Origin: Rhodopirellula bahusiensis | Lineage (GTDB): Bacteria; Planctomycetota; Planctomycetia; Pirellulales; Pirellulaceae | Direction: 5' to 3' | NCBI RefSeq assembly: GCF_002727185.1 | Contig: NZ_NIZW01000009.1 | Span: 124,001 to 188,000 of the forward strand | Length of the DNA: 64,000 nucleotides | Part shown: positions 38,540-42,851 of the stretch, in pieces | Layout of the letters: each line of letters begins with the position of its first letter | Numbering within the stretch: the stretch's first letter is position 1 | Made by a program: the position numbers and the translations under genes | The notes under the pieces: model-generated | Told to the model about the DNA's origin: nothing | The model's input: only the letters and a program-made list of their open reading frames with translations | Database searches by the model: none

Positions 38540-40102
38540 TCAATTGGCGTTGCGGTTGATTGGTTCCTCAACAACGAAGGCCTTTGGGAAGTCGGCGGCG
38601 TCTGATCCACCCTGGTCCACCCAACGCTTGTTGTTGGAATTGCCCTGGGGTTGATTCATGGGAATGTCCATGCCGCCTTCGTCGCCAAGCATCTCATAGA
38701 GCTGGTTTTCCATTTCCTTGGCGACCGATTTGTAGTCCGGATCGTGAATCAGGTTGTTCAATTCATCCGGGTCCGTTTGCAGGTCGTACAGTTCGTCGGT
38801 GTCCCACAGACCGTAGTACGTGATGTATTTGAAACGATCGCCTCGCAAGGCAAACTGGGTCGGCGTTTGCGGGAAGTTCTTTTCCCAGTAGTAAACGTAG
38901 AGAAAGTACTTCCGCCAATCGGCGTCACGGTCATTGGGTAGATCGAGGAAACTTTGCCCGTCCATGTAGTCCGGCGTTTGCAATCCTGCGGCGTGCAAAA
39001 TCGTCGGCCCGACATCGATGTTGCCAACGACGTTTTCGATTGGTTTGCCGCCTTCGAACAAACTGGGGCACTGCATCAACATCGGTACGCGAATGGAGGC
39101 TTCGTAGGAAACTCGTTTGTCAATCAATCCATGTTCGCCCCACATGAATCCATTGTCGCCCATGTAGATGATCAGCGTGTCATCGTGGATTCCCATGTCT
39201 TTGAGTTGCTGCAACACGCGGCCAACGCTGTCGTCGACGGCCAACACTGATTCACAGTACCGACGGTACAAATAGTCGAGGCCTTTGTCGCTGTGATACG
39301 AAAAGTCGATCCCGTGCCAACTGTTCTTTTGGTCGCGAACCCAACGCGGGGTGTTCTTGTCAGCCGACAACTCTTTCCCCGTTGGGAGGAAGCTCAGGTC
39401 AGCATCGGCGTAGCGTCCTTGGTGTCGTTCGGCGGGCGTGAAGTTCGAGTGAACGGCCTTGTGAGACAGGTAAAGGAAGAATGGTTTGTCATCGTCTCGT
39501 TCTTTCAACCAATCCACCGCGTAGTCGGTCAATTCGTCGGTGATGTATCCCTTCTGTTTAACTCGGTCGCCGTTGACGTTGAGCGTGTACTTGGGGCCCG
39601 GCGGCAGGTAGTTGCCTTGGCCTCGGAAGCTGACCCAGTGATCAAACCCAGGCCGCGGATCGTCGTGATGCCCGCCCATGTGCCATTTGCCGACAAAAGC
39701 GGTGTCGTATCCGGCTCGTTGCAAGTACTGAGGAAAGAACAACGTTCCTTCCGGCACCATGCGGTTGTTGTCGATCACACGGTGCTTGTGCGTGTACAAA
39801 CCCGTCAGGATCGAAGCTCGACTGGGGGAGCACAAACTGGTCGTGACAAACGCGTTCTTGACGTGCGTGCCATTGGCCGCAATCGAATCGAGGTGGGGCG
39901 TTTCGAGGAACGGATGACCGGCGCAACCCATGGCGTCGAAGCGGTGGTCATCAGTCAGGATGAAGACAACGTTGCGGGGTTGGACTCCGTCACGCTTGGG
40001 CGTTGGAGGCAACTCACCAGCGGCTTGAGCAATGGTTCCACCGAGAGCCACGCACAGCAGCGCGGCGAGATACGGTCGGACTCGTGAAAGTACGGTGCGC
40101 AT
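38540..40102 (-). CDS. Secreted sulfatase (formylglycine type)
   Basis: 520 aa. Signal peptide (MRTVLSRVRPYLAALLCVAL to AQA-AG), then the sulfatase fold: metal Asp in FILTDDHRFDAMG, the formylglycine site CSPSRASILTG (C-x-P-S-R), KWHMGGHHDDPRPG, IYMGDNGFMWGEHG. All are needed for activity and present. It hydrolyses sulfate esters, probably of algal or animal polysaccharide; the exact substrate is unknown. Closer to the iduronate/glucosamine-sulfatase type with an FDHW block. The frame is open upstream to 40573 but only this start gives a signal peptide. Confidence 0.93.
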   Translation of the reverse strand: MRTVLSRVRPYLAALLCVALGGTIAQAAGELPPTPKRDGVQPRNVVFILTDDHRFDAMGCAGHPFLETPHLDSIAANGTHVKNAFVTTSLCSPSRASILTGLYTHKHRVIDNNRMVPEGTLFFPQYLQRAGYDTAFVGKWHMGGHHDDPRPGFDHWVSFRGQGNYLPPGPKYTLNVNGDRVKQKGYITDELTDYAVDWLKERDDDKPFFLYLSHKAVHSNFTPAERHQGRYADADLSFLPTGKELSADKNTPRWVRDQKNSWHGIDFSYHSDKGLDYLYRRYCESVLAVDDSVGRVLQQLKDMGIHDDTLIIYMGDNGFMWGEHGLIDKRVSYEASIRVPMLMQCPSLFEGGKPIENVVGNIDVGPTILHAAGLQTPDYMDGQSFLDLPNDRDADWRKYFLYVYYWEKNFPQTPTQFALRGDRFKYITYYGLWDTDELYDLQTDPDELNNLIHDPDYKSVAKEMENQLYEMLGDEGGMDIPMNQPQGNSNNKRWVDQGGSDAADFPKAFVVEEPINRNAN

Positions 40103-40223
40103 ATTCAACAATTCTTTGGGGCGGGAATGAGGGGAAGCCCGCCATTGTAGTCGAATTGCGTGGGCTGATCGACGATCTTCGCCCGCGAGGCGGGGCGATT
40201 CAGCAGCCATCATCCAGTTTGAC

Positions 40224-41831
40224 TCAATCGGCTTGAGCCGCGTCCCAAATCGCTTCGTCCGCCTTTCGAATGATCGGTTCGAACTGCTCGATCTCGACCG
40301 CGTTGTTGCCTTGTTCATGCTTGCGAAACAAGAACAGATAGGTCTCGTTCTGAGGCCGATAACGATGGAAAAAGAACTCGTTCTTTCGAGCAATCGCTTC
40401 AAGCAATGACTTTCGTTCCGCCTCGCCGAGTGACTTTTCAGCGACGGCTCGATTCGATGCGATTGTTTCACCCGACGTGACTGGTTCACCCAACAGAGCT
40501 CCAGCCAACTGCTTGGCCAAGTCGCGATAGCCGACTTCATTGGGCAACATGCGATCGTCCACCAATTGCTCATCGGTGGGTTGCCAGTTCAGCTCCACCA
40601 ATGCCAATGATTTGGCTCGCGCCACGTTTCGAAGCATCTGTTCAAACGCTTCCAGTCCGGACTCATAGTTGGGACGTCGATCGCCGGGCATGGCAACAGG
40701 CGTGAGCAAGATGACTCGTATTTCGCGTTGCTGCATCTCATCGATCAAGCTTATCAAGTCAGCTTGGTTGCGTTCGGCATTTTCTGCGAACGCCCCCGCT
40801 TCGGATTGGCCGTACCACAGCAAGGCGACGGTCGGATCGGCCGCATCAATGTCCGCCAAACGCCGGGCTCGTCCGGCTTCGATGTTGTCGAAGCGTTTGC
40901 GTGCGATGGCGGCGACCGTGTCACCGGACCAACCCAAATTCCGGACGGACAACTTCCAATCCGGACGCTGGGTTTGCAACGCCGCTTCCAGTTCGTCTCG
41001 TGGCTGCATACGTTCAACGAACGTGCCTCCGATGACAGCGATTCGGTCTTGCGGGTGCAGCAGTGCATTGCCCTCTTCGGCCATCGCGGCACCGCCACCC
41101 ACACCGAAGATCAACGCGAAAAAAACGACGGCGGAAACTTTCTTCACCATGACACATTCCTCTGTGTCCAATTCGTCATTGCCTCGCACGAATCGGTACA
41201 ACCATCCTCCAGCGATCGCGCCCACGATGGGCGCGGTCAGATACAACCAAAGCAAATTGTAATGGTTGGACATGACCGCGGGACCCAGGCTGCGAGCGGG
41301 ATTCATGGATGCTTTGGTCAACGGTCCGGCCACGAAGGCCTCCATCGCGATGGTGGCGCCGACCGCCAATCCAGCGGTGATCGATTTCTCTTTCGCGCCG
41401 GTCGAAACGCCCAGCACGATCCACATCAGGATCATCGTCATCATGAACTCCACCGCCCACGCTGAGCCCGTCGGCAAGGATGCCATCGTGGAGCCAAGCT
41501 TCACGTCGTCGACACCAAAAACCATTCCCAGCGAACCGGCGGCGAGCAACGCACCCGCACATTGAGCGACGATGTACGCGGCGGCGTCGACCACCGGCAA
41601 TCGCCCCACGCTAGCGAATGCGATCGAAACGGCTGGGTTCATGTGAGCCCCTGACAAATCGCCGATCGAATAGATCATGGTCATCACGATCAACCCCCAA
41701 ACCGTGGCCACGCCAACGTGAGTCAGCATGCCAGTTTGATTGTCGACGACCATTGCGCCGCAGCCAATCAACACCAAGCAATAGGTGCCGATGACTTCGC
41801 AGACGCATCGGCGGGTCAGAGAAAGTTGCAT
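40224..41831 (-). CDS. Aquaporin (MIP) fused in frame to an SGNH hydrolase
   Basis: One open frame of 535 codons joins two unrelated domains. Residues 1-227 are a complete MIP channel: six helices and two half-helices with SGAHMNPAVSIAFA and TKASMNPARSLGPA. Residues 228-535 begin MVKKVSAVVFFALIFGVGGG to AMAEEG, a typical cleavable signal peptide, followed by an SGNH-like domain (IAVIGGTFVERM, NLGWSGDTV, LLWYGQSEA) of the type also seen in planctomycete heme-binding proteins; a Ser is replaced by Gly/Thr in block I. GAGGA lies 7 bases before the internal ATG. Either one fused polytopic protein or two separate products are possible. Confidence 0.8.
   Translation of the reverse strand: MQLSLTRRCVCEVIGTYCLVLIGCGAMVVDNQTGMLTHVGVATVWGLIVMTMIYSIGDLSGAHMNPAVSIAFASVGRLPVVDAAAYIVAQCAGALLAAGSLGMVFGVDDVKLGSTMASLPTGSAWAVEFMMTMILMWIVLGVSTGAKEKSITAGLAVGATIAMEAFVAGPLTKASMNPARSLGPAVMSNHYNLLWLYLTAPIVGAIAGGWLYRFVRGNDELDTEECVMVKKVSAVVFFALIFGVGGGAAMAEEGNALLHPQDRIAVIGGTFVERMQPRDELEAALQTQRPDWKLSVRNLGWSGDTVAAIARKRFDNIEAGRARRLADIDAADPTVALLWYGQSEAGAFAENAERNQADLISLIDEMQQREIRVILLTPVAMPGDRRPNYESGLEAFEQMLRNVARAKSLALVELNWQPTDEQLVDDRMLPNEVGYRDLAKQLAGALLGEPVTSGETIASNRAVAEKSLGEAERKSLLEAIARKNEFFFHRYRPQNETYLFLFRKHEQGNNAVEIEQFEPIIRKADEAIWDAAQAD
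41148..41162 (-). promoter_or_regulatory. Internal ribosome binding site and ATG inside the fused frame
   Basis: On the minus strand GAGGAATGTGTCATG places a Shine-Dalgarno sequence 7 bases before an ATG that starts a signal peptide. It suggests that the SGNH protein (40224-41150) can be made on its own. Confidence 0.65.
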
Positions 41832-41840
41832 CGTGGGTGA

Positions 41841-42851
41841 TCAAGCTCGAGTGGTAGGCAAGGGAATGACATCTTCAATCGAATCGGCATCAACACGCAA
41901 CATCAGCAATCGGTCGACGCCCAACGCGACTCCGCTGCATGCCGGCAACCCTCGCCGCATCGCCTGCAGCAACGTTGTTTCGACGGTCAAAGCCGGCCGA
42001 CCGTGTGAGATTCGAATTTGGTTGTTGTGCTCGTAACGTTTCTTCAGTTCTTCGGCGTCCAACAGCTCGTCGTAGCCGTTGGCCAGCTCAACGCCTCGGT
42101 AGAACAACTCAAATCTTTCGGCACATTGCGGGTCATCGTCGCAAGGTTTGGCCAAGGCGGCTTGGGTCACAGGGTAACGAGTCAGAATCGTCGGTGTGTC
42201 ATTGGCGAAGACCGGCTCGATCCTTTCGCTCAGCAACACGTCCAACAAAGCATCGCGATCGAGCCCAATCGATTCAGCCAGTGATGAATCAACCTCGCCA
42301 ACAACGTCTCGCAATTCAGCGATGGGAATATCGATCGGATCGAACCCAAGATGCTGGCCGAACGCGTCTCGGTAGGTCAATGTTTTGTAGGGAGGGGTAT
42401 TCAACGTCTCGGCGGCGAGTCCGCCCATCAATTCAATCGCGGACGCCGCGTTTCCGCCGACCTCGTACCACTCCAGCATCGAAAACTCGACGTTGTGCCG
42501 AACCCCTGTTTCGCCCTTTCGAAACACCGGAGTGATCGCGTAGATCGAAGGGGCTCCCTCGGCGAGCAGCCTTTTCATCGCGGATTCGGGTGACGTCTGC
42601 AGGTAGAACGTCGACGGCGAATCGGGCTCGCTCACCAAACCAACTTGCGAACCTTCAACCTCAATCGGATCCAAAAACGCATCGACGACGCAGTCTCGGC
42701 CTAAACAAGGTGGCTGGACCTCCAAGAAGCCTCGGTCGTCGAAGAATTGCCGAATCTCCCGCAGCAAGTCGGCTCTTTGCCGCAATCGGATCGCCAAACT
42801 GGTTTTCGAAGACGAAGCGACGGCAGATTTCGAAGCGGACGGGTCAGGCAT
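41841..42851 (-). CDS. epmA: EF-P lysyltransferase (EpmA/PoxA/GenX)
   Basis: Attaches beta-lysine to elongation factor P. 336 aa, a class II lysyl-tRNA synthetase catalytic core without the anticodon domain. Class II motifs: FLEVQPPCLG (motif 1), TPVFRKGETGVRHNVEFSML (motif 2), ACSGVALGVDRLLML (motif 3); VELANGYDEL lies between them. Start ATG 42851 is chosen; the frame is open to 42980. It lies 9 bases upstream of the aquaporin frame on the same strand, so the two are probably co-transcribed. EF-P and EpmB genes are not in the window. Confidence 0.92.
   Translation of the reverse strand: MPDPSASKSAVASSSKTSLAIRLRQRADLLREIRQFFDDRGFLEVQPPCLGRDCVVDAFLDPIEVEGSQVGLVSEPDSPSTFYLQTSPESAMKRLLAEGAPSIYAITPVFRKGETGVRHNVEFSMLEWYEVGGNAASAIELMGGLAAETLNTPPYKTLTYRDAFGQHLGFDPIDIPIAELRDVVGEVDSSLAESIGLDRDALLDVLLSERIEPVFANDTPTILTRYPVTQAALAKPCDDDPQCAERFELFYRGVELANGYDELLDAEELKKRYEHNNQIRISHGRPALTVETTLLQAMRRGLPACSGVALGVDRLLMLRVDADSIEDVIPLPTTRA

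Follow-up and report, generated by a model that had tools for sequence, protein, structure and literature searches.

An aquaporin gene of Rhodopirellula that runs in frame into a signal-peptide-bearing SGNH-fold protein, with a putative internal translation start at the junction

FbcH of Bradyrhizobium is a precursor comprising cytochrome b and cytochrome c1, which is cut by signal peptidase into parts that work in one complex. In bacteria, in-frame internal translation starts also yield shorter second products from one gene. Aquaporin-arsenate reductase fusions of actinobacteria have been described (PMC9775063, PMC12838822), so that the statement of an earlier note on the present DNA, i.e. 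that fused genes of this kind are not known, is too broad; in the available parts of these sources, however, no signal peptide lies between the aquaporin and the enzyme. The Rhodopirellula literature on aquaporins or major intrinsic proteins, as far as it is accessible in one open library and in the available parts of its texts, has nothing on a fused gene.

Here we describe such a gene in a stretch of 64,000 nt of Rhodopirellula bahusiensis DNA, called the window below. A frame of 535 codons, from ATG to stop, is located on the minus strand from 41831 down to 40224. Along this frame, an MIP channel is followed by a short charged linker, by a start codon, lysines, and a hydrophobic core ending in A-M-A, and by a protein of the SGNH fold (Table 1). 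The earlier note, which gave no strand, had claimed that the channel is joined in frame, without a stop, to a signal-peptide-bearing SGNH protein; the open frame and the Pfam matches of the two halves agree, and the in-frame fusion is confirmed. The channel half matches PF00230 with residues 3-212 (profile positions 5-222 of 222, E 2.2e-49), and its two NPA boxes read HMNPAV (residues 63-68) and SMNPAR (175-180). Kyte-Doolittle analysis placed six hydrophobic segments before residue 212, which, together with the whole-domain match, bears out the complete six-helix channel described previously. A seventh segment at residues 226-244 is the strongest of all (2.15). The six fused genomes introduced below have cores with hydropathies of 2.1-2.5, preceded by two lysines in five cases, and all of them contain an A/S-x-A at the expected cut (AMA, SMA, SMA, AVA, AVA, and ATA). 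A structure model of the whole chain was poor (pLDDT 64, pTM 0.48, pLDDT <50 at residues 219-254) and was left out of the topology reasoning. The mechanical ORF of the downstream sulfatase, 38540-40573 on the minus strand, extends upstream by 471 nt and overlaps the SGNH gene in a different frame; its likely start is at 40102.

Table 1. Features of the fused gene and its neighbours in the window
Feature	Position	Strand	Basis or remark
MIP/aquaporin channel part, residues 1-216	41184..41831	-	Pfam PF00230; two NPA boxes
Junction block, codons 213-228: linker, GAGGAA, and internal ATG	41148..41195	-	Lowest synonymous change of the frame, four close species
GAGGAA, Shine-Dalgarno-like	41157..41162	-	Invariant in six genomes
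Internal in-frame start codon ATG, codon 228	41148..41150	-	GTG in G011
Putative signal peptide / seventh hydrophobic segment, residues 228-251, ending A-M-A	41079..41150	-	Sequence and hydropathy
SGNH-fold protein, mature part, residues 252-535	40227..41078	-	Ser, Asn, and His of the SGNH set replaced
C-terminal motif FFFHRYRPQNETYLFLFRKHEQGNNAV of the SGNH subfamily, near-invariant	40296..40376	-	Alignment
Inverted repeat CGATTCGT-N11-ACGAATTG within the junction block	41169..41195	-	Candidate element
Upstream neighbour, epmA/lysyl-tRNA-synthetase-like (PF00152)	41841..42851	-	Pfam; 9 nt from channel start; synteny in 6 of 6 fused genomes
Downstream neighbour, sulfatase (PF00884)	38540..40102	-	Pfam; synteny in 6 of 6 fused genomes

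The second half matches Lipase_GDSL_2 with residues 289-436 (E 5.7e-10). A model of the mature part reached a pLDDT of 71 and a pTM of 0.74, and matched the SGNH enzymes TesA (best Foldseek match, E 3.5e-7, TM 0.77 by target length) and Axe2; SGNH enzymes were also found by profile search. To this half we aligned relatives, giving 33 sequences in total, i.e. the six fused ones, the best 24 stand-alone loci from the family, and three more, with block assignments that rest on the alignment and on the general SGNH motifs. The Ser of block I is replaced by Thr in all 33 sequences (GGT in 31, GNT in two). The His of the block V motif DxxH is present in nine of the 33, with Leu in all six fused proteins, and the Asn of block III is absent from the six, which read YGQSEAG. 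For comparison, the distant relatives in Verrucomicrobia have GDT in all nine (of ten) that cover block I, together with the block V His. Since the catalytic Ser and His are replaced and a C-terminal motif, FFHRYRPQNETYLFLFRKHEQGNNA, is nearly invariant in the subfamily instead, it is probable that the second protein, though of the SGNH type, is either non-classical or non-catalytic. It probably is a binding or accessory protein rather than a classical esterase, and perhaps it acts with the neighbouring sulfatase on sulfated sugars. Of the designation "SGNH hydrolase" in the earlier note, the fold stands, as indicated by the model and by Foldseek, but with Ser, Asn, and His replaced a classical hydrolase is unlikely. 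Members of the subfamily (L016, L019, L091-L113), which have Thr for the nucleophile Ser, share the C-terminal motif RPQNETYLFLFRKHEQGNNA almost without change (positions 40296-40376 in the window) and are found in other genera in frames of 400-1600 codons; because of this recurrence, the subfamily is probably a module of larger proteins.

For a comparison within the genus we used 13 genomes, including that of the window (G000). The full-length fused frame is open in five of them, i.e. G000 (538-codon open frame), G004, G006, G009, and G011, and the proteins of the latter four are 85, 85, 86, and 75% identical to the window frame, respectively. A sixth fused genome, G002, has an open frame of 420 codons with an in-frame gap within the channel. 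Linker lengths are identical in all six. The earlier note had named a junction stop or frameshift in most relatives as the observation that would speak against the fusion; among the six genomes with both halves side by side, none has one. Loss of the stop by a sequencing or assembly error has a negligible probability and is refuted by the occurrence of the same open junction in six separate genomes with protein identities of 75-86%, two of which, G002 and G004, are single-contig. Four other genomes (G001, G003, G010, and G012) contain a stand-alone, stop-terminated channel at a different locus with 70-76% identity, and a close copy of the SGNH protein was found in none of them. The remaining three (G005, G007, and G008) yielded weak matches only, to either half.

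The gene order desaturase, epmA, channel, SGNH, and sulfatase is common to all six fused genomes. In the epmA protein tree, for which a midpoint root is the only rooting, these six all fall to the same side of one branch, which is supported at 100/100. Of the seven unfused genomes, six have other genes after epmA, and the contig of G012 ends there. Within the family (241 genomes), the SGNH half was found in 144 genomes (E ≤1e-15) and the channel half in 94 (E ≤1e-30), and among the channel matches outside the six no open frame exceeds 405 codons. At the level of the order, 396 genomes were drawn, including G000 and G004 as the only fused ones, and among the matches listed there is no other channel frame of more than 433 codons. 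A contig scan with exact short peptides gave 19 loci, one of which is fused (R. europaea), and missed other fused genomes. As far as examined, the halves are separate genes elsewhere in the family. Stand-alone SGNH relatives have their own signal-peptide-like N-terminus, and in seven of eight regions their genes are located in other settings, six of them beside a glutathione-peroxidase-like or MFS-like gene, as assigned by eye. Outgroups with adjacent but separate channel and SGNH genes were not found in the loci compared. The fusion is known only in this clade, and a single origin would be the simplest reading.

In G002, the fused gene (single contig; L077, 5955-7208, minus strand) has lost 112 channel codons in frame. 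The two copies of a 13-nt repeat that flank the deletion, CATGAACCCGGCT as in G009, encode the two NPA boxes; one box is left, reading RNPA, so that the pair of boxes is lost, and the linker and the SGNH part are intact. The SGNH half is constrained in the G009-G002 pair (pN 0.039, pS 0.21). The persistence of the SGNH protein without an intact channel argues against a strict joint function of the two halves.

Across the six fused genomes, the channel is the most conserved part (mean pN/pS 0.10), followed by the mature SGNH part (0.21), the signal peptide (0.41), and the short linker (1.18). The linker ratio is unusual, owing to an almost complete lack of synonymous change in this segment. We scanned the whole frame for synonymous change in the four close species with an intact gene, using 5000 column shuffles as permutations. 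All ten of the lowest 10-codon windows, out of 529, are at codons 212-221. In codons 213-228 there are 2.0 synonymous differences per 62.0 pairwise sites, i.e. a pS of 0.032 compared with 0.571 in the rest of the frame, whereas amino-acid change is like that elsewhere (pN 0.102 versus 0.083). The lowest value was reached by none of the 5000 shuffles for windows of 16 and 20 codons, and by 25 of 5000 for windows of ten. At the 387 columns with an invariant amino acid, codons differ in none of ten within the block and in 268 of 377 outside (Fisher 5.8e-6; 3.3e-5 with per-residue rates). The longest run of identical codons, 11, lies in the block, and the next longest is four. Codons are fixed while amino acids vary, and a copied tract would have erased the amino-acid differences too; among the close species we thus read the block as being under selection at the level of DNA or RNA.

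This pattern is confined to the close species. For G011 versus the four, the trough is absent (pS 0.669 versus 0.707 in the rest). When G011 was added, the lowest 16-codon window still began at codon 213, but 50 of 5000 shuffles reached its value, and with 10-codon windows the lowest value was at codon 175. In terms of raw nucleotide identity, the block does not stand alone, as a window at codon 191 is equally conserved. The close species differ from G000 at three to four of the 48 nt of the block, and G011 at 22 of 48. The absence of stops from the block is weak as proof of selected read-through, since only six to eight of 144 single changes would create one and the close species differ little. 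A frameshift that ends the channel just after the ATG was also considered and dropped: an early stop in the +1 frame is present in some, not all, of the six genomes and is not conserved.

Within the block, GAGGAA is located 6 nt before a start codon, with the same spacing in all six genomes; the start codon is ATG in five and GTG in G011. These observations agree with the earlier claim that the second protein has its own ribosome binding site and start, and the synonymous trough, which holds among the close species and is absent for G011, coincides with this site. The predicted pairing of the internal site with the anti-Shine-Dalgarno sequence is -5.8 to -8.4 kcal/mol, compared with -2.2 for the start of the channel. 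The 27 gene starts in the window have a mean of -2.72, which is no enrichment over random positions (-2.53), and Planctomycetes have small fractions of SD genes, according to the available part of PMC5397173; for both reasons the Shine-Dalgarno argument is weak here, although the site by itself would make a good SD. Taken together, an internal translation start is the most likely function of the block. In G000 only, GAGGAA also forms the loop of a perfect 6-bp inverted repeat, GACACA-GAGGAA-TGTGTC (41151-41168), which is broken in the other genomes.

In the absence of a stop between the two, a ribosome completing the channel continues into the SGNH part (unless it slips or the message is cut). 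We propose that the six channel helices would leave the end of the chain in the cytoplasm, that the former signal peptide would insert as a seventh helix, and that the SGNH part would be exported. Signal peptidase I would then cut after the A/S-x-A, and the precursor of about 58 kDa would give rise to two proteins: the channel, extended by one short helix, of about 26 kDa, and the periplasmic SGNH protein of about 32 kDa. In addition, ribosomes would initiate at the internal ATG behind GAGGAA and produce an SGNH preprotein of about 34 kDa, in excess over the channel; that there are two translation products is inferred from the nucleotide-level selection at the internal start. We judge the chances to be about even that the gene encodes such an obligate precursor, cut by signal peptidase, with extra SGNH protein from the internal start. 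A more far-reaching version is put forward tentatively: one gene might have two translation programmes, one for an aquaporin with a seventh helix and one for a secreted pseudo-SGNH protein from a guarded internal start, with the channel carrying an outside domain before cutting and the levels of both being mutually fixed. On that reading, it would be the first aquaporin to be synthesized as one polypeptide with a globular domain outside the cytoplasm.

The conserved block might serve another purpose than initiation, as a DNA operator, an internal promoter, or a hairpin in the RNA, with the inverted repeat CGATTCGT-N11-ACGAATYG as its basis. This repeat fills the first half of the block and pairs in all five close genomes, and CGATTCGT-N11-ACGAATTG is its only perfect copy in the genome. 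With up to two mismatches, 30 forward and 34 reverse copies exist, and none of the backwards pattern; the words CGATTCG and CGAATCG may simply be common in this genome. Against an RNA structure, hairpin stability is unexceptional when compared with synonymous shuffles (fractions of 0.02-0.45 in five genomes and 0.96 in G011), and pairs with changes on both sides are missing from the repeat, which pairs no better than the shuffles. The promoter scan, which covered the sigma-70-like type only, found no site on the minus strand and one on the plus strand, and a scan for terminator-like sites gave four versus 3.9 expected. A hairpin or operator at the junction thus obtained no support from shuffles or pair counts, in spite of the repeat, and we consider a function of this kind rather unlikely.

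Two further explanations concern the fate of the protein, and we rate both as improbable, somewhat below an operator or hairpin. For the case of read-through, the earlier note had proposed a product with the hydrolase outside and the former signal peptide as a seventh helix; as a stable fusion with a permanent helix, it would tether the SGNH domain by the channel mouth. The lack of a stop in all six genomes and the strength of the hydrophobic segment 226-244 fit such a product, as does a helix at residues 224-244 in the structure model, although that region is within the part with a pLDDT <50. Yet the signal-peptidase-type A/S-x-A is kept in all six, which makes a stable seven-helix product less likely than a cut precursor; in addition, G002 retains the SGNH part despite its broken channel, and tethering would serve no purpose for that part of the SGNH protein which came from an internal start. 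Alternatively, the locus could consist of two genes in practice, with the SGNH protein translated exclusively from its own start, and with a run-on channel that is tolerated or degraded as a by-product of the lost stop. This would account for the synonymous trough at the internal start, for the separate halves elsewhere in the family, and for an SGNH part in G002 that does not need an intact channel. However, the channel, intact in five genomes, is the most conserved part of the frame, and since it can be translated only together with what follows, the run-on product must have a function. If such a by-product were costly, a stop should also have reappeared, which is the case in none of the six genomes.

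The new observation is that, among four close species, synonymous change drops lower in codons 213-228, up to the internal ATG, than anywhere else in the frame. If the proposed reading is true, a bacterial gene would be a precursor of a channel and a secreted protein and a nested gene at once, having arisen by loss of one stop codon and then been retained by selection. In the literature of one open library, we found no case in which a channel is combined with a mid-chain secretion signal and a guarded internal start. Separate genes, the fused gene, and the fused gene with a disabled channel form a natural series for studying how fusions settle and whether old starts stay in use. Moreover, what is labelled "SGNH hydrolase" in this group may be a non-catalytic protein family, marked by a strongly conserved C-terminal motif.

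Among the known systems, the SGNH/GDSL hydrolases, e.g. TesA and the acetylxylan esterase Axe2, share with the second half the fold and a Gly block (NLGWSGD), but in all six fused proteins GDS is changed to GGT, the block III Asn is absent, and the His of DxxH is replaced by Leu. The aquaporin-arsenate reductase fusions, as far as described in the available parts of the sources, are similar in that an MIP channel and a C-terminal globular domain are encoded in one gene. In those fusions, however, the channel is joined to its domain with no signal peptide in between, and the domain produces the channel substrate, whereas in Rhodopirellula the domain would be placed outside by a signal-peptide-like helix and lacks classical catalytic residues. 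Other systems with internal starts likewise have one frame and two starts, but here the second start would be that of a former independent gene with its own secretion signal. FbcH resembles the present gene in that a polytopic membrane protein is fused in frame to a signal-peptide protein, with small residues at positions -3 and -1 relative to the expected cut, and in that one chain gives rise to two products, which are inferred here. In contrast to FbcH, the Rhodopirellula gene joins a channel and an SGNH protein without a known joint role, and it carries evidence for an internal start.
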